From: a virus
Strand: one strand, 5' to 3'
Length of the DNA: 40,556 bases
Virus record (IMG/VR): IMGVR_UViG_3300042904_000068
Location: 1-40,556 of that record
Under the pieces are notes generated by a model. The model worked only from the letters and a program-made list of their open reading frames with translations. It was not told the DNA's origin and ran no database searches. Each line of letters begins with the position of its first letter. Position 1 is the stretch's first letter. This document shows positions 1,479-12,757 of this stretch, one piece after another. The translations under genes and the position numbers were made by a program.

Positions 1479-1730
1479 TTCCGCAATTCGCGTTTGGGTC
1501 GCGACCTCTCCTCTGAGAATTGCGCGCTGGAATTCGGAAATTGCGGAATAGATTTGCGGCTAAGTGGCTGAATCTATTATCCTTCTGCGCGGACTTAAAA
1601 TCCGCCGCGCCTTAAAAGCGCGTACCGGTTCGATCCCGGTTCGAGGCACCACAGCGCTTAATTTAGTGCTATTGAAGGAATAGCGAGTAGGGGGCCGACT
1701 TCCGCAATTCCAGAGCACTGTTCCGCAATT
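1479..1730. repeat. Four copies of TTCCGCAATT: probable integrase arm-type sites
   Basis: The 10-mer TTCCGCAATT occurs exactly at 1479-1488, 1700-1709 and 1721-1730 on the plus strand, and as its reverse complement at 1539-1548. They flank the tRNA-derived core on both sides. The two right-hand copies are 21 bp apart, about two helical turns, and the last overlaps the integrase stop codon. Repeated decamers flanking a core next to the integrase gene are the usual signature of P and P' arm sites bound by the integrase N-terminal domain. Confidence 0.8.
1589..1651 (+). other. attP: attP core containing the 3' half of a tRNA-Leu(UAA) gene
   Basis: The sequence reads as a tRNA from the anticodon arm to CCA: anticodon stem 1589-1593/1601-1605 with loop CTTAAAA (anticodon TAA at 1596-1598), a class II variable arm (1607-1610/1618-1621), T-arm 1624-1628/1636-1640 with loop TTCGATC, and the 3' acceptor strand TCGAGGC-A-CCA at 1641-1651. 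No matching 5' acceptor strand or D-arm precedes it, so it is not a functional gene. Many tyrosine integrases target the 3' half of a tRNA and carry it in attP so the host tRNA is rebuilt on integration. Its place beside int supports this. Confidence 0.9.
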
Positions 1731-2895
1731 ACTTGCCGGTGCTCACCTTCTTGCCGACCTTGTTCCGGATGTAGCGGACCGTCATCGTCTCCGTGGTGTG
1801 GCCGAGCAGGGCCTGCGCAGCCCGCGTGCCCTGCGCCTCATCCATCTCGGTGGCCACCTTCGCGCGGAAGTCCCGGAACTGGAACAGTGCCTTCGGCACG
1901 CCGGCCGCCGCGCGCGCCGTGTCGAAGCGCTCGCGCAGCATGCTCTCGGTCAGGGCCTTGCCGTCTTCGTTCACCAGCAGGGCCATGGTGTGCACCACCG
2001 GCTTCCCTGCCGCGCGCCGGCGCTGGTCGATCTCGCGCTTGTATGCGCGGATCTCCGTGATCAGGTCCGCCAGCGCACCGTCGATCACGATGCGCAGCTT
2101 CATCCCCGTCTTGCCTTGTTGGACCTGCAGGACGCCGCCCGGCACCGGGCCGACGATGTGCGCCTCGCTGACGCGCCGCACGTCCGCCGGGCGCTGGCCG
2201 ATGATGTCCGCCAACCGCATCGCGAACGCCAGCGGCGCATCAGCCTCGGCCAGCACGCGCGCCACCTGGTCGATGTCCGGCGCGATGTCGCGGCCTTCCT
2301 CTTCGAAGCCGCTGACGCCGGCGCACGGGTTCGGCAGCTTCGTCAGCCCCTCCTCGCGCGCGTAGTTCCAGATGTGCGAGAACAGCGCCTTCTCGCGGTT
2401 GGCGCGCACGTGCCCCATGTCATGCGGCACCGGCTGCTCCGGCTTGCCTGCGGCCCGGCGCGCGGCGTTCTTCGCCTCTGCCGCCTCGCGCGTGGTCTTC
2501 ACTCGCCAGCGTAGGTACTGGCGGATGTGCACCGGTTCGATGCTGTCCAGCGGCGCCGGCGGGTCGCCGAAGAACTTCAGGAGCCACACCAACTCGTCCT
2601 CGTTGTCCTGCTGCGTGCGCGGAGCCTTGCCTGGCAGCACGTCCTTCCGGTACCCGGCAACCTTGCCGCGCCCGTTCAGTGCGTCCAGGAAAGTCACCGG
2701 TGCGTTCGCGGCTGCGGGCGTCGGGCGGCTGGTGAGCTCGGCCCACTTCGCCACCGCCAGCACGTAGTCGCTGCCGAGCGGGATCTCCTTGCGCGGCTTC
2801 TCGCCGGTGTCGAGGTAGTAGTGCACCAGGTTGCCACGCGGGCGCGCGCGCATGCCCTTGGGCAAGTTGCTCCAGCGGGTCGGCTTTCTTCCCAT
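1729..2895 (-). CDS. int: Site-specific tyrosine recombinase (integrase)
   Basis: This 388-aa protein is the right length for a phage integrase. The C-terminal catalytic domain shows Arg235 in GQRPADV, Lys262 in QQGKTG, the box II pattern R341-D-F-R344, His366 in LLGHTT and the nucleophile Tyr375 in TVRYIR. Box II has Arg where many family members have His; I believe this variant is common in integrases of this group. An N-terminal arm-binding region and a core-binding region (about 90-180) precede it. It catalyses recombination between attP and the host attB, probably the tRNA-Leu(UAA) gene. It lies last before attP and 3 bp after the DUF4224 gene, at the distal end of the PL operon. Confidence 0.95.
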   Translation of the reverse strand: MGRKPTRWSNLPKGMRARPRGNLVHYYLDTGEKPRKEIPLGSDYVLAVAKWAELTSRPTPAAANAPVTFLDALNGRGKVAGYRKDVLPGKAPRTQQDNEDELVWLLKFFGDPPAPLDSIEPVHIRQYLRWRVKTTREAAEAKNAARRAAGKPEQPVPHDMGHVRANREKALFSHIWNYAREEGLTKLPNPCAGVSGFEEEGRDIAPDIDQVARVLAEADAPLAFAMRLADIIGQRPADVRRVSEAHIVGPVPGGVLQVQQGKTGMKLRIVIDGALADLITEIRAYKREIDQRRRAAGKPVVHTMALLVNEDGKALTESMLRERFDTARAAAGVPKALFQFRDFRAKVATEMDEAQGTRAAQALLGHTTETMTVRYIRNKVGKKVSTGK

Positions 2896-2898
2896 GTG

Positions 2899-3120
2899 TC
2901 AGGCGCTCCCGGCAATCACACGCGGCGTCCAGCCCTGGCTCGGCGCCGGCGCGGGTGCAGCGGCTGGCCGACCGTCGACGGCGGACCTCGTCACCACCGG
3001 GTGACCGGTGGCGTTGACGCGGAATGGTACGCCCTCGGCTTTCAGCCACTCGATCTGGCGGCTCTTGTGCCGGCGGCCGGTGAGCTGGCGGAGCTCGGCG
3101 TCGTCCAGGAACAAGCTCAC
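2899..3120 (-). CDS. DUF4224-like small protein preceding the integrase
   Basis: This 73-aa protein starts at a GTG (3120) that overlaps the stop of the upstream gene (GTGA). Residues 3-40 (LFLDDAELRQLTGRR followed by KSRQIEWLKAEG) match the pattern I know from DUF4224 proteins, small DNA-binding-like proteins often found directly upstream of phage integrases. The C-terminus is a proline/alanine-rich tail. An excisionase or directionality-factor role is a reasonable guess from position and size; the family name is from memory. Confidence 0.75.
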   Translation of the reverse strand: MSLFLDDAELRQLTGRRHKSRQIEWLKAEGVPFRVNATGHPVVTRSAVDGRPAAAPAPAPSQGWTPRVIAGSA

Positions 3121-3868: not shown

Positions 3869-4132
3869 ATGGCAACGCCGATTACCGCAGTGGCCTTTCA
3901 CCCCGAAGCGCCGCTGGAAGCCTTCGCCTCGATGATGCGGACAATGAAGTCGGGGGAAAGCAGCCTGCGGTACATCGACTGCAAGAAGGTCGACATGACG
4001 GACTTCGGCATGCTGCGCCTCATCCCATCGGGGGAGAACCCGGGGGACATGGCGATCTACGTCCACCCGAGCTACGTCGCCTGGATGCTGCGTGCGGACG
4101 ACCGGAAGCAGGTCGGTTTCCTGCCGGCGTAG
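3869..4132 (+). CDS. Isolated rightward gene inside the leftward operon (87 aa, unknown)
   Basis: ATG at 3869 has a strong ribosome-binding site, AGGAGA, five bases upstream. The 87-aa product looks like a real protein, with balanced composition and a hydrophobic C-terminal half (FGMLRLIPSGENPGDMAIYV). Codon usage is GC-rich like the neighbours and no opposite-strand gene covers it well. It runs against the PL operon, diverges from the ASCH-like gene (26-bp gap holding both ribosome-binding sites) and converges with the next gene (5-bp gap). No family is recognised. Its placement resembles a moron: a small, separately expressed accessory gene. Confidence 0.65.
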   Translation: MATPITAVAFHPEAPLEAFASMMRTMKSGESSLRYIDCKKVDMTDFGMLRLIPSGENPGDMAIYVHPSYVAWMLRADDRKQVGFLPA

Positions 4133-4137
4133 AGAGC

Positions 4138-4590
4138 TCATTCCGCTCTGCCCCCATCCATCGGCGTGTGCTCGCGTTTCGTGTGCTCCGCACCCACCGT
4201 CACGCCACCAGTGGTAAGCCAGCGGTTCGCTGCCTCCCACCCGGCCCGCGCTGCGTTCTTGGTGTTGGACGGCCACTGGTATTCCGCCATCAGCGAGTCC
4301 ATCATTGCGGACGCTTCCGGCGAACCGGGGTGCGGCAGGGCACGGCTCGGCGTTGCACACGCATCCAAGCCATCGGCACGCAGCCGTGCCGCGATCTTGT
4401 CGGCCAGCGCGTCCAGTTCAGCATCCTTGCGCTTCGCCGTCTTGATTGCTTGGCAGGCTGGACACGGCATGTTGCTACCCAGCTTCCACTGGTAGTGCAG
4501 TTCCTGTTCGCCGCACGGCGCGGGATCGAGCGTCTTCACGAACTCGGCGAACGGCACTTCGGGCTCACGCTTCTTGAAGGGCCAGATCAT
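4138..4590 (-). CDS. Hypothetical accessory protein with a CPAC motif (150 aa)
   Basis: The ATG at 4590 overlaps the upstream stop by 4 bp. The protein starts IWPFKKREPEVPFAEFV, has a single C-x-x-C (CPACQ, about residues 43-46), a basic helical middle (KDAELDALADKIAARLR) and a C-terminal segment rich in Trp and Asn (AARAGWEAANRWLTTGG). The C-terminal pattern recalls mosaic Ea22-like accessory proteins of lambdoid phages, but this is only an impression. One copy of the TGGCGTG motif lies near its 3' end (4201-4207). Confidence 0.7.
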   Translation of the reverse strand: MIWPFKKREPEVPFAEFVKTLDPAPCGEQELHYQWKLGSNMPCPACQAIKTAKRKDAELDALADKIAARLRADGLDACATPSRALPHPGSPEASAMMDSLMAEYQWPSNTKNAARAGWEAANRWLTTGGVTVGAEHTKREHTPMDGGRAE

Positions 4591-5111
4591 TTGCCACCCT
4601 CCTTCACGCCATCACCACGCACAGCGAACCCTGCCGCCACCAGCACGTTGCCGATGTCATCGGGCGTCCTGCCGTTGCGCTCCATGAAGTCGCGCAGGCC
4701 ATCGACCCATGCGGGCAGTCCAGACGCCTTCACGCCAGCGGTGAGCATTGCGTCCACCTTCAAGATCACGGCGTTGGACAGGCGCTGCTCGAACTTGGAC
4801 AGCGGGGCCTTCTTCGCCAGCTCCACCGCGACGTTCCAACCCATCGGGAGCTTGTCGCGGATGCTCATCGGTGCAGCCGGTGCCACGCCAGCGGAGTAGC
4901 ACTTGCCGTAGAGGTCGAGTGCCAGTGCCTGATAGCGGACAACTTCCTTGTGCACCTCAGCGATTGCAATGTCGGCTCCAGGGAGCGGCTTGCCATCCTT
5001 CGTCTTTAGCCATGAAAGGTGTTGCTCCAAATCCGATCCGTATTTCAGGACGGCGTGGTAGACAAACTCCATGTCGTCGGCGCTGATCGTGACTGCTCGC
5101 AGCGGCTTCAT
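4587..5111 (-). CDS. Hypothetical accessory protein (174 aa)
   Basis: Starts at ATG 5111, overlapping the upstream stop by 4 bp. The N-terminal half is helical with a conserved-looking block (MEFVYHAVLKYGSDLEQHL). Most of the rest is also helical. The C-terminus (WVDGLRDFMERNGRTPDDIG) looks like a separate small helical domain. No catalytic or metal-binding motif and no membrane segment is visible. It holds three copies of the TGGCGTG motif (encoding DGVK, AGVK and AGVA), the most in any gene of the cluster, each falling between apparent modules. Confidence 0.7.
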   Translation of the reverse strand: MKPLRAVTISADDMEFVYHAVLKYGSDLEQHLSWLKTKDGKPLPGADIAIAEVHKEVVRYQALALDLYGKCYSAGVAPAAPMSIRDKLPMGWNVAVELAKKAPLSKFEQRLSNAVILKVDAMLTAGVKASGLPAWVDGLRDFMERNGRTPDDIGNVLVAAGFAVRGDGVKEGGK

Positions 5112-5521
5112 TTTTGGCCCCCATCAGGTAATGCCACGCCAACATTGCGCCCGCATTCCGGGCAGAACTCAACCGGCGTTCCGTCGCCCGTCTGCATCTG
5201 CCGCGTGTCCGTGTGGTGGCACGCCGTCACGCCAGCGGCACGTTCCTGTGCCAGTTCGCGCTGCCGCTTCGGGTCAGCAACGTGAGTGCCCAACACGCCA
5301 CGGGCGGCGCGCATGACGGCCCGGACCACCATCGCGGCGTTGTCGCCGGTGCAGTCGTCCTTGAAGGACAGCAGCGCTTCGTCCACCTCGGGCAAGTCGC
5401 GGATGCGCTCCACTTCGGCCCACTCGCTCGGCCAGTCCTTGCACTTCGGGTCGTGCTGCTCGGCCTCGTCGCACTGGTGGTGCTGGCAGCGCTCGTTCGT
5501 CCAGACTCCGGGCTCAGGCAT
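5108..5521 (-). CDS. Hypothetical accessory protein with zinc-binding motifs (137 aa)
   Basis: Starts at ATG 5521. The N-terminus is rich in Cys and His (ERCQHHQCDEAEQHDPKC) and the C-terminus carries a zinc-knuckle-like CPECGRN. Between them is a helical segment (DNAAMVVRAVMRAARGVLGTH). The Cys/His content suggests one or two bound metal ions. Function is unknown. Three copies of the TGGCGTG motif fall inside the gene, one immediately after the CPECG knuckle. Confidence 0.7.
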   Translation of the reverse strand: MPEPGVWTNERCQHHQCDEAEQHDPKCKDWPSEWAEVERIRDLPEVDEALLSFKDDCTGDNAAMVVRAVMRAARGVLGTHVADPKRQRELAQERAAGVTACHHTDTRQMQTGDGTPVEFCPECGRNVGVALPDGGQK

Positions 5522-5798
5522 TTCCGCCCTCCTGTTGATCGTTGTGAGTGCCCGGCACGCCAGGGGTCAGGTGCACCGTTTGCGCGTCCTCAAAGGCGCA
5601 GCGCAGGTCCATCGCGCTGCCGCGTAGGTCGTGCCTTTCGGCCCACTGGGCCACTTCGGCGTCCGAAGGCTTGCGCGGCGTCGCCAGCCGCTCCAGCCGC
5701 TCCCTCTCGGCCACATCCAGCACGCGGGCGGCGGCTCGCAGAATGTCGCCGGGCGAACTCACCAGCCCAATCGCGTTGGTGTGTTTCGGGTCAGCCAC
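5514..5798 (-). CDS. Hypothetical accessory protein (94 aa)
   Basis: GTG at 5798 is chosen because AAGGAGG sits six bases upstream, an almost perfect ribosome-binding site. An ATG further upstream lacks one and would add a run of arginines. The protein is mainly helical (DILRAAARVLDVAERERLER, then LATPRKPSDAEVAQWAERH). Its last part (GVPGTHNDQ) resembles GVLGTHVAD of the neighbouring protein, and the DNA there is near-identical (GAGTGCCC-nn-CACGCCA on the plus strand). It overlaps the upstream gene by 8 bp and the downstream one by 8 bp. Confidence 0.7.
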   Translation of the reverse strand: MADPKHTNAIGLVSSPGDILRAAARVLDVAERERLERLATPRKPSDAEVAQWAERHDLRGSAMDLRCAFEDAQTVHLTPGVPGTHNDQQEGGNA

Positions 5799-5994
5799 GG
5801 GCGGCCTCCTTGCTCGTCGGCGCAGGTCCATTCACGCCACAGGTGGCGTCCTCGTCGTCCTCGTCGGCGTGGTCCTCGATGTCGAACACATGGCGGCAGG
5901 ACGCGCACCGCTCCAGGCGCTCGTCGGTCTGCTCGCCGTCCCAGCCGTTGTCGTATTGGTAGCTGACCTTGCAGCCGCACTTCGGGCAGGCCAT
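5791..5994 (-). CDS. Zinc-ribbon small protein (67 aa)
   Basis: Two C-x-x-C pairs, CPKCGCKV near the N-terminus and CASCRHVF about 25 residues later, form a classic four-cysteine zinc ribbon. A strongly acidic tail follows (DIEDHADEDDEDATCG). ATG 5994 shares a base with the upstream stop (TGATG). Such proteins often bind nucleic acid or act as adaptors; nothing more specific can be said. The TGGCGTG motif lies just after the acidic tail. Confidence 0.75.
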   Translation of the reverse strand: MACPKCGCKVSYQYDNGWDGEQTDERLERCASCRHVFDIEDHADEDDEDATCGVNGPAPTSKEAARG

Positions 5995-6308
5995 CAGGAA
6001 CCCTCCTTCGCGCCAAGGGCGGCACGCTCATCTTCGTTGGCGTCTGCGTAGAAGGCTTCGGCGTTGCGCTCCACGCCGTGACCATCGCGGAACGTGGTGA
6101 AGTCTCCGATGTGCTTCACTTCCAGCTTGCCGCACACGTCGATGCGGATCAGGCCGGTCTGCACCTCGAAGTCGTTGATCGGCCACCACCAACCTCCGCG
6201 CGTCCGACCCATGAATGGGTGCGGCAGGCTGTTGATGTAGGCCATGTCGAGTAAGTCGCAGGCGCAGTCCTTGCCCCCGCTCTCTGAGTTGGGAGAGGTC
6301 ATGCTCAC
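5994..6308 (-). CDS. Hypothetical accessory protein (104 aa)
   Basis: Begins at GTG 6308 (overlapping the upstream stop as GTGA) or at ATG 6302, where GGGGTGA lies just upstream; the product differs by two residues. It contains CACDLLDMAYINSLPHPFMG followed by a Trp-rich stretch (GGWWWPINDFEVQTGLIRID). The second half (GHGVERNAEAFYADANEDER) ends in an acidic segment. No family is recognised. Near-copies of the TGGCGTG motif occur at 6009-6015 and 6072-6078. Confidence 0.7.
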   Translation of the reverse strand: MSMTSPNSESGGKDCACDLLDMAYINSLPHPFMGRTRGGWWWPINDFEVQTGLIRIDVCGKLEVKHIGDFTTFRDGHGVERNAEAFYADANEDERAALGAKEGS

Positions 6309-6592: not shown

Positions 6593-6837
6593 GCTGCTTC
6601 AACCTCCCCGCGAAGGCGCTTCAGCAGCGCATCGAGCTTTTTGCGGCTCAAGCGAGTGAGGCCGCCGGCAGCCACCCGCTGCGCGCGCTCGTTGTCCGCT
6701 ACCCAGCGCCGCGTCGTCTGTACGCCCCCAGCGCTGACAAACTCCGGCACTTTGTTCGCTGCTGCTGCAACGTCGGCGCGGAGTCGCGCCTTCTCCTCCG
6801 ATACCTTGTTTCTGCGGGGGGGGGTCTGCTCGCTCAT
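6589..6837 (-). CDS. Small basic phage protein (82 aa)
   Basis: Starts at ATG 6837, overlapping the HNH gene by 4 bp. A longer frame exists upstream but is the out-of-frame shadow of the HNH gene. The protein is strongly basic with two helical segments (EEKARLRADVAAAANKVPEF and GLTRLSRKKLDALLKRLRGE). The charge suggests nucleic-acid binding. A run of eight Gs on the plus strand (6815-6822, C on the coding strand) near its 5' end is a possible slippage site. No family recognised. Confidence 0.7.
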   Translation of the reverse strand: MSEQTPPRRNKVSEEKARLRADVAAAANKVPEFVSAGGVQTTRRWVADNERAQRVAAGGLTRLSRKKLDALLKRLRGEVEAA

Positions 6838-7559
6838 GCTGCTTGCTCCTGTGCCTCTCGGGCGATTCGGTTGACCTGGCGCGTGATGGCGCCCTTCAGC
6901 TGCACCAGCTTTGCCAGTTCGGGCGAGCGGTTGCGCGGGTGGTTGCGGTTGGCGTGCTCGCCTCGGGTGATGCACTCCAGCCGGTCGGCGGTGACTTCCT
7001 CCAGCACTGCGGTCTTCATGCCTTCGCGGAAGCGCACGATGTGGCCGGCGGGGATCGGGCCGCGCTCGGCCTCCCACACCAGGCGGTGCACGGCAACCCA
7101 GCGCCGCGCGGGCACCGGGTGGTCGTCCGTCACCTTGCGTTCGAGGTAGCCATCCGCGCTGATGCGCAGGCTGCCGATAGGCTGGTAGTTGTGCTGCGCC
7201 GCGCCTGCCATCGCGCCCTTGCGGAACTGCGTGCGGCGGCTGTTCGGGTGATGGCCGGTGCCGGTCTCCAGGCTGCTGCGACCCTTGTTCCACGGGACTA
7301 GGCCGGGCTTGAACTGCGCGGCCTTCATGTTGGCGTGCTGCTTGCCGCGCGCGATCCGCCCAGAGCGATCCGACGCAAGGAACTCGGCCGACTTCTCCAG
7401 GCCGAGGGTTCGCGCACGCTGAAAGACGGAACTCACCGTGCGCGTCAGCACTTCCGCCATGTCCTTGCCGCGAAGCTGCGGATAGAACTGGCGCATGCAC
7501 TCATCCTCGGCAGCCGTCCAGGGGCGGCGGGGCGAGAGGATGCCGCGCGACTTCGTCAT
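6834..7559 (-). CDS. HNH endonuclease-like DNA-binding protein (241 aa)
   Basis: Starts at ATG 7559, sharing bases with the stop of the recombination nuclease gene upstream. Residues about 12-55 form a SANT/Myb-like or helix-turn-helix segment (RRPWTAAEDECMRQFYPQLR and TVSSVFQRARTLGL). The C-terminal half contains an HNH-type segment: the block around VAVHRLVWEAERGPIPAGH, then CITRGEHANRNHPRN. This architecture is typical of phage HNH homing-type nucleases. It is embedded in the recombination operon with coupled starts, so it may have been recruited to a phage function rather than being a recent invader. Confidence 0.75.
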   Translation of the reverse strand: MTKSRGILSPRRPWTAAEDECMRQFYPQLRGKDMAEVLTRTVSSVFQRARTLGLEKSAEFLASDRSGRIARGKQHANMKAAQFKPGLVPWNKGRSSLETGTGHHPNSRRTQFRKGAMAGAAQHNYQPIGSLRISADGYLERKVTDDHPVPARRWVAVHRLVWEAERGPIPAGHIVRFREGMKTAVLEEVTADRLECITRGEHANRNHPRNRSPELAKLVQLKGAITRQVNRIAREAQEQAA

Positions 7560-8287
7560 CACGCCGCCTCCAGCTTCCGGTGCTCGGTGAACGCCTCGAC
7601 GGTGCTGAGACGGGTGGGGGTGGGGCGCACCAGTTCCCGGTGGTTCGCGTCGAACTCGGCGATCACCTGCGCGTAGTAGGCGCGGGCGTGCTTCACCTTC
7701 TCCCGCATGGCCGCTTCCTTCGCCATGTCGCGCTCGATCGTCCAGATCGTCAGCCGCATGTGCTCGGGGATGTGGTCGACCAGGTGCAGCGACAGCGGCT
7801 CGAAGCGGATCAGGCGCTCCGGCGTGCTGACCAGGGCGTAGGCGATGTGCCAGCGCCGGGCGTTCCACAGCGCCATGTACGCGCGGCACTGCCACTCGTA
7901 CACCGTGCGGGCAGAGCCGCCGATGTCGTCCGCCAGGATCGGGAACGTTGCCGCGCTCCAGGCGGTTTTCAGGTCGTAGCCCTCGTCCGCGGGGGCGTCG
8001 TACAGGTCGCATTCGCCGGTCAGGTGCTCGTCCGTGCGCCGATCGGTGTTCTTCACCAGCGAGAGCCCGCGGACCCGGTTCAGGAGCGCGATGGAGTCGG
8101 GCTCGCACTCGATCCCCTTCTCCATTTCCTTGCTGCTCACCTCGAAGTCGATGCCGAGGATGTGCTGGGCGGCGATGTCGCGGATCGCGGTCTTTGCTCC
8201 CTGCGACAGCGGGCCTTCGGACTTGCTGCGCGGCTCGGTCATCAGGCGGCCGACCATCGAGGCGCGGATGATCAGGTCGGCCATCAC
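7559..8287 (-). CDS. YqaJ/lambda-Exo-like PD-(D/E)XK recombination exonuclease
   Basis: The 242-aa protein shows the restriction-like nuclease pattern: IECEPDSIALLNRV supplies the first acidic helix, GECDLYD the catalytic Asp region, and YDLKTAW the D-x-K core. This matches the YqaJ/lambda exonuclease family, which resects double-stranded DNA 5' to 3' to leave 3' tails. It is translated directly after the ERF-type annealing protein with a 4-bp overlap, giving the standard two-component phage recombination pair. Such pairs act in circularisation and recombination-dependent replication. Start ATG 8287; another in-frame ATG follows immediately. Confidence 0.85.
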   Translation of the reverse strand: MMADLIIRASMVGRLMTEPRSKSEGPLSQGAKTAIRDIAAQHILGIDFEVSSKEMEKGIECEPDSIALLNRVRGLSLVKNTDRRTDEHLTGECDLYDAPADEGYDLKTAWSAATFPILADDIGGSARTVYEWQCRAYMALWNARRWHIAYALVSTPERLIRFEPLSLHLVDHIPEHMRLTIWTIERDMAKEAAMREKVKHARAYYAQVIAEFDANHRELVRPTPTRLSTVEAFTEHRKLEAA

Positions 8288-9036
8288 TTCGGCTCCTTCA
8301 ATTCGCGATTGCGGCGAGCAACCTCGGAGGCGAAGCGGCGATAACCTTCGACGTCGCGAGCCTTCGTGAACGCCTGGGCGCCCTCGCTGGACAGCTTCTT
8401 CACCGCGTCCGGTGTCTCGGCGGCGTTGACCAGGTCCACCCAGGTATCCAGCAGGCTGCGCGCGGCGCCGTTGCCGTCGTCATCGTCACCGCCTTCCGCA
8501 ACGCCGCAGATAGCCTTGAGGGTGTACCGCTCCAGGTAGGTCTTCGTGCTGGCGCGCGCCTGGATCGCGTTCTTCGCGCCACCGGCATCGGGAGGCCCGC
8601 CCATGGAGACGGATTCTTCGTGCCCGTCGACGTGACGCAGGTAGCACGTCACCTCCATCCAGTCCTTTTCGTCCTTCGTCAAGCGCCAGCTGGCGGACAG
8701 TCCGTGACGGGAAAGCGCCGGGGTGAGGGCATCAACCACAGAGTGCAGCTCGGCGTAGCTCTTACCCTGAAGCGGGCCGGCGGTGACGTCGCGGTTCTTC
8801 ACGATGCGGACGGCCTCGGCCTTGAAGGCAGCGAACGCGGCGTTGTACGCCTTGCGCGCCTCGCCGGCCTCCCAGCGCGCTTGCAGGTCCATCATCTTTT
8901 CCACCTGCTCGAGGCTCGCGCCTTGGCGCAGGGCGGTCAGCATCATCCCGGCCGGGGAGGATTCGGAGAGGGTCGGCAGCTTGCGCTCGGGCGGCGCGCC
9001 AACTTCTTCGATGTCGAGAATTGCGAGGTCGGTCAT
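8284..9036 (-). CDS. erf: ERF-family single-strand annealing protein
   Basis: The 250-aa product begins at ATG 9036; a longer frame would extend over the neighbouring gene and is rejected. Residues about 45-190 carry the ERF core: an N-terminal helical block (AGEARKAYNAAFAAFKAEAV), GKSYAELHSVVDALTPALSRHGLS, WMEVTCYLRHVDG and the block TYLERYTLKAICGVA, followed by an acidic EGGDDDDGN. ERF proteins form rings on single-stranded DNA and anneal complementary strands. The paired nuclease follows immediately. Confidence 0.88.
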   Translation of the reverse strand: MTDLAILDIEEVGAPPERKLPTLSESSPAGMMLTALRQGASLEQVEKMMDLQARWEAGEARKAYNAAFAAFKAEAVRIVKNRDVTAGPLQGKSYAELHSVVDALTPALSRHGLSASWRLTKDEKDWMEVTCYLRHVDGHEESVSMGGPPDAGGAKNAIQARASTKTYLERYTLKAICGVAEGGDDDDGNGAARSLLDTWVDLVNAAETPDAVKKLSSEGAQAFTKARDVEGYRRFASEVARRNRELKEPK

Positions 9037-9040
9037 GTGG

Positions 9041-9364
9041 TCACTTCCAGAAAAGAGGGGAGAAGGCCGCAGCCAGGGCGGCAGCGCAGACAGCGGCGAC
9101 GAAATAAGCGGTGCGACGGCAGGCAAGCACCAAGTCGTCGGGGGTGGCGATCGCGTCGTCGTCGATTGCGTAACCGTCCTGAATGAGGGCGGTGGCCGAC
9201 TGGTGCCGGCGTTCCAGTTCGCCCTGCACCAGGCCGTGCTCGTCCTCCAGAAACATGACCGGCTGCAGTTCGCCCGCGCTGTAATGCGCGAACAGCTGCC
9301 CAGCGTCCATCTGCCCCGAGGCCGCGCACTCGCGCAAAAGCGCCTGATCGATTGACGCGGCCAT
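9041..9364 (-). CDS. Small C-tail membrane protein (107 aa)
   Basis: Starts at ATG 9364, sharing a base with the upstream stop (TGATG). The first 80 residues look soluble and acidic (QLFAHYSAGELQPVMFLEDE). A single hydrophobic segment at the extreme C-terminus (AYFVAAVCAAALAAAFSPLF) suggests a tail-anchored inner-membrane protein. No family is recognised. It lies 4 bp upstream of the ERF gene in the PL operon, the region where lambdoid phages keep small host-takeover or nuclease-inhibitor genes such as kil and gam. Confidence 0.7.
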   Translation of the reverse strand: MAASIDQALLRECAASGQMDAGQLFAHYSAGELQPVMFLEDEHGLVQGELERRHQSATALIQDGYAIDDDAIATPDDLVLACRRTAYFVAAVCAAALAAAFSPLFWK

Positions 9365-9600
9365 CACGCACCTCCCGGCAGCGCGCCCAGCGCCACCATC
9401 ACGATCAGGAAGACGCCAGCCAGGAGGCACGCGCCAGTGACGATGCTGTCCGCAGGGTCGAGCGGCGTCGGCGCGCTGTCGTCGTGCAGGCGGCGCACGA
9501 TCTCGGGGACCGCTGGGTGGGTCGGGTTCAACTGCGCGAGCGCAGCCGTCAGGACCGACCGCTCGCACAGCTGCAGCAGGGGGTGGAACACGCGCTTCAT
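9364..9600 (-). CDS. Small membrane protein (78 aa)
   Basis: Starts at ATG 9600, overlapping the upstream stop (ATGA). The N-terminal half is amphipathic (HPLLQLCERSVLTAALAQLN). Residues about 52-74 (DSIVTGACLLAGVFLIVMVA) form one transmembrane helix near the C-terminus. Together with the next gene it gives two consecutive small C-terminal-TM proteins made early from PL. Function unknown. Confidence 0.7.
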   Translation of the reverse strand: MKRVFHPLLQLCERSVLTAALAQLNPTHPAVPEIVRRLHDDSAPTPLDPADSIVTGACLLAGVFLIVMVALGALPGGA

Positions 9601-9878
9601 GCCGGCTCCTCGACGCTGATGTCCTTGGTGGACAGGCGGGTCAGGACTTCGCGCTCCATGGCCCTCAGGGCGACGCTAGCGAGCCATTCCGAGCCGCCGT
9701 GCACGAAGCACACCGGCTGCTCCTTGATGCCGCTGGTGGTGCTGATCGTCAGGGTGACGCGCTCGTCGGCCTTGAACTCGGCGTCGCGCAGCTCCTCGCG
9801 GGCGCGTCGGATGTCCTTCAGCAGCTCGAGGTCGGCGACGACGCCGTCGATCTGATCGTGGGCGAGGACGGCGCTCAC
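9597..9878 (-). CDS. Small hypothetical early protein (93 aa)
   Basis: GTG at 9878 overlaps the stop of the upstream gene (GTGA), which sets the start; upstream in-frame codons are Arg/Gly-rich shadow sequence. It has an acidic helical N-terminus (IDGVVADLELLKDIRRAREE) followed by a beta-rich part (ERVTLTISTTSG and PVCFVHGGSEWLASV). No family is recognised. Confidence 0.68.
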   Translation of the reverse strand: MSAVLAHDQIDGVVADLELLKDIRRAREELRDAEFKADERVTLTISTTSGIKEQPVCFVHGGSEWLASVALRAMEREVLTRLSTKDISVEEPA

Positions 9879-10129
9879 AGCGTGCCCCCAGCCGCGAAGT
9901 GCGCAGCGCACCCGCCGCAGACCTGCCCGGCCGACGGCGAGCCGCACAGGCTGCAGGTGGTGGTGAAGGGCGCGGGCTGCGCCGGCTTCACCGGGCCGAC
10001 GACGACGGCGCGGCGGGTGGGCCGCTGGTAGTCAGGAACCCGGGCACGCTGGCCAGCCAGCACCTGCTGCGCAAAGGCCGAGAGCACCGGCTGTGCCGGG
10101 GTCGTCTTGCCTGCCGTGAAGAACCGCAT
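9875..10129 (-). CDS. First PL gene: small zinc-ribbon protein (84 aa)
   Basis: ATG 10129 is preceded by AGGAGG at five bases, an excellent ribosome-binding site. The predicted PL transcript starts about 32 nt upstream. The C-terminus has a four-cysteine zinc ribbon, CSLCG and CGGCAAHF about ten residues apart. The N-terminal half is proline-rich and basic. As the first product of the leftward operon it could be an N-like antitermination or host-modulation protein, but there is no arginine-rich boxB-binding motif, so that is speculation. Confidence 0.75.
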   Translation of the reverse strand: MRFFTAGKTTPAQPVLSAFAQQVLAGQRARVPDYQRPTRRAVVVGPVKPAQPAPFTTTCSLCGSPSAGQVCGGCAAHFAAGGTL

Positions 10130-10167
10130 CTCGCCTCCTGGCGCCCTGTTTGGTGGGCGTGGAGGGA

Positions 10168-10196
10168 ATATTAGGCGTGCCTACCTTCTCTGTCAA
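10168..10196 (-). promoter_or_regulatory. pL: PL: early leftward promoter
   Basis: On the minus strand TTGACA (10196-10191, a perfect -35) and TAATAT (10173-10168, a five-of-six -10) are separated by exactly 17 bp. Transcription should begin near 10161, giving a ~32-nt leader before the first gene. Two repressor operators overlap or abut it: one covers the spacer and the edge of the -10, the other sits directly upstream of the -35. Confidence 0.9.
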
Positions 10197-10208
10197 TAGG
10201 CATCCCTA
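10172..10208. promoter_or_regulatory. OL operators (two sites)
   Basis: TAGGCGTGCCTA at 10172-10183 and TAGGCATCCCTA at 10197-10208, centre-to-centre 25 bp, each differ by one base from the palindrome TAGGCATGCCTA. The second is identical to a site in the cI-cro region. A bare half-site TAGGC also occurs at 10234-10238. Placement across PL means CI and/or Cro can shut off the leftward operon. Confidence 0.85.
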
Positions 10209-10240
10209 ACATTATGCCAACGCCGACGAACGGTAGGCGC

Positions 10241-10264
10241 AAAAAAGCCCGCGCGCGGCGGGCT
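10241..10264 (-). terminator. Terminator of the cI (lysogeny) operon
   Basis: On the minus strand a 7-bp stem AGCCCGC/GCGGGCT (10264-10258 with 10252-10246) with loop CGCGC is followed by TTTTTT. It sits 20 bp past the last gene of the cI operon and just upstream of PL, insulating the two leftward transcription units. Confidence 0.9.
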
Positions 10265-10283
10265 GGTCGTCGAGGAACTGCGG

Positions 10284-10589
10284 TTACTTCACGTGTCGCG
10301 CAATAAAGAACACTGCAGCGCTCAACAGGGTGCCGAAGGTGAGTGTCACCCCGATGACCTTCCAGGTCTGCTCATTTAATGCCTTGTGCAGCTCGGCGCG
10401 TAGATCCGACACGTCGCTCTTAGTAGCCATGGTCGCCTCGATCCGCGCGAGCCGCTCCCGCGCCGCGGTGGCGAAGTCTTCGAGGGCTTTGACGCGAGCG
10501 TCCATCTGGTCATTATCTGGGGGCTGTGGCCCACGAGGCAACCGGTTGTCGCGCCGAAGGAGCTCGTAAACGTTGCCCTCGTCAGCCAT
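10284..10589 (-). CDS. Coiled-coil protein with a C-terminal membrane anchor (101 aa)
   Basis: A heptad-like stretch (MDARVKALEDFATAARERLA, then RIEATMATKSDVSDLRAELHK) is followed by one transmembrane helix (WKVIGVTLTFGTLLSAAVFF) and a short basic cytoplasmic-type tail. The layout resembles XhlA/DUF1640-like small phage membrane proteins. The start ATG 10589 overlaps the upstream gene by 8 bp. It is the last gene of the cI operon, so it should be expressed in the lysogen. Confidence 0.75.
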   Translation of the reverse strand: MADEGNVYELLRRDNRLPRGPQPPDNDQMDARVKALEDFATAARERLARIEATMATKSDVSDLRAELHKALNEQTWKVIGVTLTFGTLLSAAVFFIARHVK

Positions 10590-10818
10590 TGTGTCGCTCC
10601 AAGTCCTCTAGCAACGTCATCACCAGTTGCATCGATCTGTCGTTGTCTTGGCCGAGTGGCGTGGTGGCCAAGTTCTTCATCCGCTGCAGGATCCGCTCCC
10701 CGAGCCGCGGATCGGTCTCATTCAGCGCAAGCACGGTCTGCCATACGAGAAGAAAAGCGGCATGCGAGACCGCGGTGTCGGCAGGCTGCTTCGGAGGTGG
10801 AGGGTCAAGGAGCCCCAT
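10582..10818 (-). CDS. Small helical protein in the cI operon (78 aa)
   Basis: Starts at ATG 10818; a much longer in-frame extension is a shadow of the HNH gene. The sequence is a short proline-rich head (GLLDPPPPKQPAD) followed by helices (HAAFLLVWQTVLALNETDPR, then RSMQLVMTLLEDLERH). No membrane segment or motif is seen. It overlaps both neighbours, consistent with coupled translation. Confidence 0.65.
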   Translation of the reverse strand: MGLLDPPPPKQPADTAVSHAAFLLVWQTVLALNETDPRLGERILQRMKNLATTPLGQDNDRSMQLVMTLLEDLERHNG

Positions 10819-11104
10819 GGGAGGCCTTTCGTGATCTGGCACATTCGCGCACATCCACCAGCGTCTTGAAGCGGTGGTCCTCTTTGCTGATCCACTGCAT
10901 GTTCGTGCGGTGGTCGGCGCCACCGGCGCACAGCGGCTGCACGTGGTCAACCTCCCAGCCTGGGCACGCGCCGCGTCGCTGGCCGGTAGTGGGGCAGGGC
11001 TCGCCCCGGATGAAGGCAAGGCGCTCCGCCGCAGAGCGCGGTGTCGCACCGGCCTCGGCCGCAGCGAGCAAAAGGAGTAGTGCAACTATTCCGTGAGGCC
11101 CCAT
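10805..11104 (-). CDS. Signal-peptide-bearing HNH nuclease (99 aa)
   Basis: Residues 1-20 form a signal peptide (GIVALLLLLAAAEAGA, likely cut after AGA). The mature part holds a compact HNH motif: DHVQPL supplies the first His, then HRTNMQW the Asn, and DHRFKT the last His, with Cys residues around it (CPTTGQ, GACPGWE, LCAGG, REC) that could bind zinc or form disulfides in the periplasm. Periplasmic export of a nuclease is unusual for a phage. Being in the repressor operon, it would be made by the lysogen and could cut DNA entering through the periplasm. ATG 11104 overlaps the lipoprotein gene by 19 bp. Confidence 0.8.
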   Translation of the reverse strand: MGPHGIVALLLLLAAAEAGATPRSAAERLAFIRGEPCPTTGQRRGACPGWEVDHVQPLCAGGADHRTNMQWISKEDHRFKTLVDVRECARSRKASHGAP

Positions 11105-11319
11105 ATCCTGCCGTTCGCCCCGCAGTTCCGTTCAAGGCCCGCCATCGAGTCATCAGCGTCGTAGCGCTTCGACCGGTAACCGTCTACAACAGCTTGCACA
11201 TAGGCGCGGCAGTTCACCGGTAACCCAGTCTCTTTCCCATAGATGGGTTTTGCATTCGGGTCTCCGTTGCATGCCACCAGCAGCAGGCAGAGGGCTGTCG
11301 TCAGCGGAGCTCTCACCAC
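11086..11319 (-). CDS. Small lipoprotein (77 aa)
   Basis: A GTG start at 11319 with AAGG upstream gives an N-terminus of basic residue, hydrophobic core and lipobox LLVAC-NGD, so Cys17 should be lipidated. Asp at +3 rather than +2 would favour outer-membrane sorting under the E. coli rule. The mature 61 residues contain two further Cys (VNCRAYVQ and LERNCGANG) that may form a disulfide, and a YDADDSMAGLE stretch. No family is recognised. It lies between the two-TM protein and the exported HNH nuclease. Confidence 0.75.
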   Translation of the reverse strand: MVRAPLTTALCLLLVACNGDPNAKPIYGKETGLPVNCRAYVQAVVDGYRSKRYDADDSMAGLERNCGANGRIWGLTE

Positions 11320-11520: not shown

Positions 11521-12056
11521 GGCGTGATGGTCACTTCCACGGTCCGGCCGCCGCTCACCCTTGCGCGGCCGAGAAGGTACCCGCCCTGCTCGGTGTTGTA
11601 CCGCCCCGCGCTCCACACGACTCGCGTGATCAGAAAGAACTCGCCGTCCGCCAGCTCGGCGAAGCGGAAGAAGCCTTGTGCGTTGCAGGTGGTCTGCTTT
11701 GTATGCTCCGCGTACCCTGGCGGATCCGGGTTGAACTTCCGCCCTTGGTTCGTGCGCGCAAGACCGCCGCCCCCGTAGATTGCCGCCACCCGCTCCTTGG
11801 AGTATGCGGTGGCCGGAATGAGCAGCACGGGGTTTCCCGCGCAGGTGACGACACCGCCGCCCTGCTGCCGAATAAGCGCACTGCCGGTGATCGTGTTCGG
11901 ACCCGGCTTCATCAATGCCGCGGTTTCTGCGGCGTCGAATGGGGCGTGGATCTCTGTCACCTGCGGCGCGGGCGCCGCACACCCTGCGAGCATTGCCACA
12001 CTGGCAAATACTGCCAACAGCTTCGTCTTCAACCCATCCCTCACAGGTACCCCCAT
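11517..12056 (-). CDS. Lipoprotein with a carboxypeptidase-regulatory-like domain (179 aa)
   Basis: ATG 12056 overlaps the cI stop (TAATG), so it is translated directly after the repressor. Residues about 10-29 are a lipoprotein signal (LLAVFASVAMLAGC with lipobox LAGC-AA). The mature part (ITGSALIRQQGGGVVTCAGN, LIPATAYSKERVAA, and QGFFRFAELADGEFFLITRV) matches the pattern of carboxypeptidase-regulatory-like beta-sandwich domains. As the gene after cI it is probably the most strongly expressed envelope protein of the lysogen. Surface alteration or phage exclusion is an inference. Confidence 0.75.
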   Translation of the reverse strand: MGVPVRDGLKTKLLAVFASVAMLAGCAAPAPQVTEIHAPFDAAETAALMKPGPNTITGSALIRQQGGGVVTCAGNPVLLIPATAYSKERVAAIYGGGGLARTNQGRKFNPDPPGYAEHTKQTTCNAQGFFRFAELADGEFFLITRVVWSAGRYNTEQGGYLLGRARVSGGRTVEVTITP

Positions 12057-12757
12057 TAGAGTTTTTTTCCGTTCCACGCCCAGATCACGCGCCCCAGGAT
12101 GTGCACCGGCTCAGAACCATCCAGCAGCTGCACGGTCTTGACCTTGGGGTTGTCGCTGCTGATCTCGTGCCGCCCGTCAAACCTCTCCGTGACACGTTTG
12201 ACGAAAATCCGATTGTTTGCCTCTAGAACGTACACGCCGTCAATGTTCGCGTCCACGATCCCGCCGTCCACCAAAAGGATGTCGCCGTCGTTGAAGGTGC
12301 CCTCCATGGAGTCGCCGTAGCCATGGATGAACCGGAGGTTCTCCAGCGCGGTCGGCTTCAGCGTCTTGAGGATCCATTCCGGGGAGAGGGTCAGGCGGCC
12401 GACCACGACGTCATCGTGCTGCTCGGATCCCGGCCCCATTGAGGCGCTCGTTGCCAGCACGGGGACGCTGACCTTTTCAAAGCCAGGAAGGTACGGGGTC
12501 TCGACAGTCGCGAGCGCGGTCTCCGCTGACTCACCCGGTGCCAGGTGCTTTGGGCCGATCCCCGTCGCCAGCCACTTCGGATGCACCTCGAAGAAGCTCG
12601 CCGCGTTCAGCAGGTTGTCCGCCTCGAGCGTCTTCGTTCTCCCGCTGACCCAATCCGACACCGATGGCGCCTTGACGCCGCAGGCCTGGGCAAGCCGACG
12701 CTGCCATCCGCGGCCCTTGTCTTCCCCCAGCTCCTTCAAGCGATCCGCCAAGCTCAT
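12056..12757 (-). CDS. cI: CI-type prophage repressor (HTH + S24 peptidase)
   Basis: The 233-aa protein starts at ATG 12757; a longer frame would read through the operators. An N-terminal helix-turn-helix (RRLAQACGVKAPSVSDWVSG, about residues 20-40) precedes an S24/LexA-type domain with Ser150 in GDSMEGT and Lys187 in FVKRV, the Ser-Lys dyad for RecA-stimulated self-cleavage. The usual Ala-Gly or Cys-Gly cleavage dipeptide is not evident in the linker, so inducibility is uncertain. The operator at 12759-12770 abuts the start codon, and the predicted PRM start point is at or next to the ATG. Confidence 0.92.
   Translation of the reverse strand: MSLADRLKELGEDKGRGWQRRLAQACGVKAPSVSDWVSGRTKTLEADNLLNAASFFEVHPKWLATGIGPKHLAPGESAETALATVETPYLPGFEKVSVPVLATSASMGPGSEQHDDVVVGRLTLSPEWILKTLKPTALENLRFIHGYGDSMEGTFNDGDILLVDGGIVDANIDGVYVLEANNRIFVKRVTERFDGRHEISSDNPKVKTVQLLDGSEPVHILGRVIWAWNGKKL

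Follow-up and report, generated by a model that had tools for sequence, protein, structure and literature searches.

The window, that is, the whole stretch of DNA analyzed here, is IMG/VR virus record IMGVR_UViG_3300042904_000068 (40,556 bases, GC content of 67%), abbreviated W in comparisons with other contigs. Because it encodes an integrase, an excisionase, an ERF recombinase, an S24-type repressor (Table 1), a CII-like regulator, NinB-like and NinG-like proteins, TerL, and a portal protein, it is a lambdoid-like temperate phage, and its motif cluster sits where lambda has the exo-xis region with ea22. When some of the window's other genes were scanned against Pfam/PHROG, the NinB/Orf recombination mediator, NinG, and the excisionase were detected and no second recombinase was. 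Among the accessory genes, protein similarities suggest that the gene at 4138-4590 is likely chimeric. Protein searches found no relatives of the proteins encoded at 4587-5111 and 5108-5521, and no window protein matched Ea22.

Table 1. Genes and joints of the window discussed in the text
Feature	Position	Strand	Remark
Phage tyrosine integrase	1729..2895	-	
Excisionase	2899..3120	-	Pfam/PHROG scan
Accessory gene (MIWPFKKR...)	4138..4590	-	150 aa; similar to L009 over aa 1-86 and to L010, L011, and Acidovorax phage ACP17 over aa 79-138
Joint 1	4192..4216	-	Core TGGCGTG 4201-4207; 25-bp element, -9 to +15
Degenerate joint TGGCTTG	4366..4372	-	Within gene 4138-4590; when aligned, falls close to the joint of the L009 homologue; has T at +15
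Accessory gene	4587..5111	-	174 aa; three joints
Joint 2	4596..4620	-	Core 4605-4611; AAGGAGG and the next gene's ATG follow; L009 similarity begins here
Joint 3	4722..4746	-	Core 4731-4737; internal to gene 4587-5111
Joint 4	4875..4899	-	Core 4884-4890; internal to gene 4587-5111
Accessory gene	5108..5521	-	137 aa; three joints
Joint 5	5126..5150	-	Core 5135-5141; tail GVALPDGGQK (stop) common to L012/G3 and L027/G1
Joint 6	5219..5243	-	Core 5228-5234; internal to gene 5108-5521
Joint 7	5285..5309	-	Core 5294-5300; internal to gene 5108-5521; GVxGT type
Accessory gene	5514..5798	-	94 aa; GTG start; one joint
Joint 8	5547..5571	-	Core 5556-5562; GVxGTH type tail
Accessory gene	5791..5994	-	67 aa; one joint; weakly zinc-ribbon-like (below Pfam cut-offs)
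Joint 9	5824..5848	-	Core 5833-5839
Accessory gene	5994..6308	-	104 aa; degenerate joint; start MTSPNSESGGKDCAC identical in sister phage G3
Degenerate joint 10	6000..6024	-	TGGCGCG 6009-6015, end of gene 5994-6308; behaves as a joint
ERF-adjacent protein	7559..8284	-	Likely the exonuclease partner of ERF, judging by position; without a Pfam match
ERF single-strand annealing recombinase	8284..9036	-	Candidate enzyme for joint exchange
S24-type repressor	12056..12757		

The heptamer TGGCGTG occurs nine times exactly on the minus strand (cores of joints 1 to 9), every time in the phase NNT GGC GTG, and these copies are spread over five adjacent minus-strand genes. The original prediction had described nine exact and two one-mismatch copies, phase-locked and distributed over six adjacent genes. 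The nine copies and their single phase held, and the six genes held in part, as the sixth (5994-6308) contains only the one-mismatch form TGGCGCG. This copy is in phase, lies 8 codons before the stop, and has T at +15, and it behaves as a joint ending the sixth gene. The other mismatch copy, at 6072-6078 (CAC GGC GTG), is probably not a joint because both silent T's are missing. The retention of the third-position T in ten of the eleven copies held, as did the similarity of about 15 bp between the flanks at 5284-5300 and 5546-5562, which share GAGTGCCC-NN-CACGCCA.

Codon usage and amino acid sequence do not account for this number of copies. Synonymous shuffles contained a mean of 0.89 copies of TGGCGTG (maximum of 6 in 5,000) and codon-order shuffles a mean of 0.39 (maximum of 4), against nine observed. 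When any 7-mer was admitted, nine copies were reached in no shuffle of the five genes and in one shuffle of the six genes, out of 3,000 each. T precedes GGC in 44% of cases in the cluster versus 8% in the window's other 59 predicted genes, and Gly-Val is over-represented 2.7-fold, within the window only in the cluster. An unsupervised k-mer scan of fetched phage loci ranked the window second behind L018, whose signal, as read from the sequence, likely reflects a tandem-repeat gene. About a dozen tandem GAASATG-type repeats are found at 5990-6270 of L018, a relative detected by way of the gene next to ERF.

The heptamer is part of a longer element. Alignment of 64 copies on the 7-mer gives the consensus C-R-C-Y-N-N-TGGCGTG-N-N-R-G-N-R-N-N-T-G, in which the silent positions -6, -3, 0, and +15 are conserved. 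G is found at silent position -3 in only one of the 64 copies, and the silent T at +15 is present in eight of the nine window copies, on which no search selection acted (p of about 1e-7 at a local T3 of 0.105), and in 36 of 50 non-bait copies. The core is held far tighter than the flanks, as about 74 exact cores compare with about five clear one-mismatch forms. Exact sites scoring 12 or more are all in one orientation (71 plus, 0 minus). Once the background of codon position is removed, the two arms have the same consensus, G-N-C-R-C-Y-G-C, when the right one is read as its reverse complement, and an inverted repeat, GNCRCYGC-TGGCGTG-GCRGYGNC, surrounds the almost invariant asymmetric 7-bp core, the consensus of about 25 bp ending in -T. 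The dyad score is 0.71 versus 0.000 +/- 0.020 for random in-phase site sets and is the highest of 216 within-class permutations. This test was conceived after the consensus had been seen; it holds in the nine window copies taken alone (0.53). The arms are nevertheless weak: the outermost pair is asymmetric, with T+15 and G+16 lacking a strong partner at -9 and -10, and palindromy per copy is barely above column expectation (3.52 versus 3.33). A conserved RNA structure (hairpin CRCC-GGCG) was rejected, as neither compensatory pairs or covariation nor a consensus fold was found.

The element is also present in eight further viral contigs (G1, G2, L012/G3, L009, L140, L143, L124, and L139), giving in all 74 in-phase joints in 48 genes. 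L012/G3 was found through a neighboring gene rather than the motif and L009 through a window protein, while L027/G1 and L026/G2 were found with a 17-base tail pattern and L140, L143, L124, and L139 with two further patterns. Because several contigs were found with joint-containing baits, the copy number is biased; W, L012/G3, and L009 are free of this bias, which touches neither the window-only statistics nor the L012/L009 evidence. Matches to pattern B (TGGCGTGNNRGGCACTCA) came mostly from one repeated locus family without a joint cluster. A 47-nt joint had no significant match in cultured phages. The tail pattern had six matches in species genomes, and the joint pattern had two in 369 genomes belonging to the same class as the Herbaspirillum genome, all of them chance matches. 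A search with the integrase found no host.

Joints occupy gene ends. The last joint lies at most 26 codons from the stop in 47 of the 48 genes, and 47 of the 74 joints fall within this distance versus 16 expected. Several joints are present in 17 of the 48 genes, dividing modules of 18 to 106 amino acids, and internal joints with no gene start nearby are as exact as terminal ones. After a terminal joint there is usually a Shine-Dalgarno-like GGAGG, then the start codon of the next gene. The tail VAPCRDAQQEN is repeated in several G1 genes (L119 and L118), in one instance lying 15 bases more distant from the joint than in the rest. Contig G1 has 174 nt in common, at 99.4%, between its two ends (L118 6388-6561 and L119 1-174); this overlap lies inside the accessory cluster, through which the assembled ends therefore cut.

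The sister phage L012/G3, whose TerL is 97% identical to that of the window, has the same cluster borders (identical MTSPNSESGGKDCAC start and 91% identity past the last joint) with other genes between them and five motif copies of its own, four in phase. The motif cluster is absent from the L012-like relatives L013 to L019 despite the same neighbor gene. Next to the cluster, an 87-aa gene on the opposite strand (3869-4132, plus) is 95% identical in G3, while the neighboring accessory genes are entirely different. At the place of the window HNH_3 gene (6834-7559), L012 encodes an 832-aa protein (8714-11212) that contains a DNA-methylase domain and, probably, helicase motifs. The window integrase is 80% identical to that of G1, though G1 structural proteins are much more distant, and has no match in G3; integrase and virion genes likely differ in history. 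No relative of the window portal was detectable in L140, L143, and three other contigs tested, several of which are fragments, so that the element may possibly cross virion types.

Comparisons of accessory regions place breakpoints at the element. Most short DNA matches include the joint in register, and many begin 0 to 4 bases before it. Among 2,628 copy pairs, the right flank beyond the element is common in 12, none of which has a common left flank (null, 0 of 5,256), and the sole pair with both flanks alike is a single copy that appears twice, once on each of the overlapping ends of contig G1. At W 4605, identity with L009 is 20 to 30% upstream (chance level), rises to 100% in the core, and then declines to 87% over the following 23 nt and to 77% beyond them. 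The same L009 copy is 63 to 73% identical (gapped) to G2 upstream and unrelated to it downstream. L009 is thus a chimera that combines a G2-like module on the left of the joint with a W-like one on its right. The body homologies of G2/L009, G3/L143, L143/L009, and W/L009 stop at or a few residues from the joint, beyond which the sequences differ, in two cases by one or two extra modules. Matches on the left side are visible only at the protein level and with gaps, which indicates that these events are old. Homologues of the G2 module (MADPHFTLEAA...) form a whole small gene in Pseudomonas phage phiPA1-3 and the N-terminal part of an Ea22-annotated protein in Escherichia phage PhiR46_1, and both matches end just before or at the residue of the G2 joint.

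The motif had been interpreted originally as a set of short homology joints for in-frame shuffling of modules, an idea that would be refuted if codon-shuffled controls gave as many copies or if the relationship between related phages did not change at the motif. It survived both comparisons: shuffles gave far fewer copies than observed, and the relationship does change at the motif. The shuffling joint is thus supported, while short homology as its cause is not shown.

We consider it likely that TGGCGTG is the core of a joint of about 25 bp at the 3' ends of modules, where modules are exchanged in frame. That the breakpoints were made by recombination at the element, and not by chance plus selection, is an inference from a footprint, as no exchange has been observed. 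In this view, the joint would end each coding module of the accessory operon in a lambdoid-like phage and in at least eight other contigs, and modules would swap at it. Because the joint is always in the codon phase N-N-T GGC GTG, an incoming module would be joined without a frameshift; it could form a separate gene that brings its own ribosome-binding site, or it could lengthen a protein by one more segment. The enzyme may be an ERF/RecT single-strand annealing protein, with the joint serving as short homology, or a site-specific recombinase, which would bind the inverted arms and cross over within TGGCGTG. No enzyme has been identified, and we cannot favor a plain homology joint over an enzyme-recognized site, which is a comparably good candidate because of the 7-bp core, the variable bases beside it, and the inverted repeat around it. 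The window also encodes a small HNH endonuclease (10805-11104, minus strand) with a hydrophobic N-terminus and a PHROG match; related ORFs are found in G1, G2, and L140, and the G3 match is short. This endonuclease is a possible partner of the joint, although there are no functional data.

If short homology alone were responsible, ERF or RecT with an exonuclease would recombine modules at 25 to 50 bp of partial identity, and the core would have no special enzyme. ERF is encoded in W and L140 and RecT in G1 and L143, their activity being inferred, and experimental support comes from other phages, in which Rad52-like recombinases, including ErfD3, outdo RecA on short or diverged homologies (PMC3945230). 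However, homology alone predicts neither a near-invariant core beside variable bases nor dyad-symmetric flank bases, and we lean slightly against it. Seven invariant base pairs are too few for ordinary homologous recombination, an objection that bears on the preferred reading of an exchange joint. Alternatively, TGGCGTG could be the 7-bp asymmetric crossover of a site-specific system, in which the arms would bind a tyrosine-type recombinase and the modules would be in-frame cassettes. Inverted arms round an invariant asymmetric 7-bp center are the layout of a tyrosine-recombinase core, and in this the element looks more like a recombinase crossover site than like a simple patch of homology. 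The single orientation of high-scoring exact sites, the joint ending nearly every joint-bearing gene, and the breakpoints at the core also fit. Against this, a common recombinase was not identified across the nine contigs, the outermost T and G lack strong partners, and palindromy per copy is only slightly raised. Integrases are related in W, G1, and L140 and distant in G2 (28% identical to W), and a W-like integrase had no match in G3 or L143. The site-specific system is a possibility to be taken seriously, if a tentative one. A bolder and equally tentative reading is an integron-like system of this type whose 25-bp joint adds, removes, and fuses modules of 20 to 100 residues in frame; if true, it would be the prokaryotic equivalent of exon shuffling at phase-matched junctions.

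The remaining explanations are weaker than exchange at a joint. The element could be a functional mRNA or DNA signal before the downstream gene (for translation coupling, an RNA-binding protein, or transcription), with genes exchanged between signals. The GGAGG and start codon after terminal joints are consistent with this, but internal joints distant from gene starts are equally exact and no RNA structure is conserved, making a signal unlikely. A Chi-like hotspot for host RecBCD, an alternative named in the original prediction, is suggested by the resemblance of GC-TGGCGTG to the Chi of Pseudomonas, GCTGGCGC, and to a weak variant of it, GCTGGCGT, and by the possible recognition of GCTGGCG+T/G by P. 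syringae RecBCD, with weaker bands (PMC5959072). However, just 24 of 64 copies have GC in front of them, the rest of the window shows no enrichment of the motif, and there is no reason for Chi to keep codon phase or gene ends. As replicon-wide over-representation without codon phase was not met, and flank and distribution misfit, Chi is very unlikely and was rejected. A need of the encoded proteins for Gly-Val as a linker or C-terminal tag would explain why Gly-Val and Ala/Thr-X-Gly-Val recur, but it is all but excluded by the conservation of silent positions -6, -3, 0, and +15 and by synonymous shuffles, which cannot reach the observed count. The earlier argument that such a need cannot explain a silent T thus held.

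It has long been asked how phages assemble their mosaic accessory genes. The border found here is a defined, countable element in a fixed codon phase, which makes the mechanism directly testable. Accessory early genes often counter host defenses, and an in-frame connector would thus offer a route to new anti-defense accessory genes.

Several known systems share features with the joint. Integron attC cassettes likewise form a promoterless one-orientation gene array with a recombination-site-like element at each 3' end. Unlike attC, the joint precedes the stop codon, is about 25 bp long, has no hairpin, and permits in-frame fusion, and an integron integrase was not identified; the foldable single-strand hairpin with R/L boxes expected of attC was not met (no consensus structure and no compensatory pairs). 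The joint core does meet the 6- to 8-bp asymmetric identical overlap of a tyrosine-recombinase core site, and inverted-repeat arms surround it, though they are weak. Phage protein-fragment shuffling (PMC10684548) is alike in its domain mosaicism; that study treats protein domains, and the words linker and breakpoint are absent from its text.

The closest known kinds are the mosaic Ea22 genes of the lambda exo-xis region and lambdoid "boundary sequences." Ea22 genes of lambda and Stx phages (PMC10834534) lie in the same position between the recombination genes and xis-int and encode proteins of swapped segments. Only one module among the joint contigs, that of G2, matches an Ea22-annotated protein, a shared DNA joint is not mentioned in the passages of PMC10834534 bearing on Ea22, and the coliphage Ea22 locus had no over-represented phase-locked k-mer in our scan. 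Lambdoid boundary sequences or "linkers" were reportedly described by Susskind and Botstein in 1978 and by Clark et al. in 2001 (HK620), as cited in PMC3029335; our comparison rests on this citing text and on general knowledge. They are likewise short, lie at module borders of unrelated temperate-phage genes, and were proposed as recombination substrates. Conservation of the border while modules differ is met here, and a short-homology recombination system is encoded in W, L140, G1, and L143, its activity being inferred. Unlike boundary sequences, the joint lies within coding sequence in a fixed codon phase, has an invariant 7-bp core and inverted flanks, and recurs at the end of nearly every cluster gene and inside multi-module genes.
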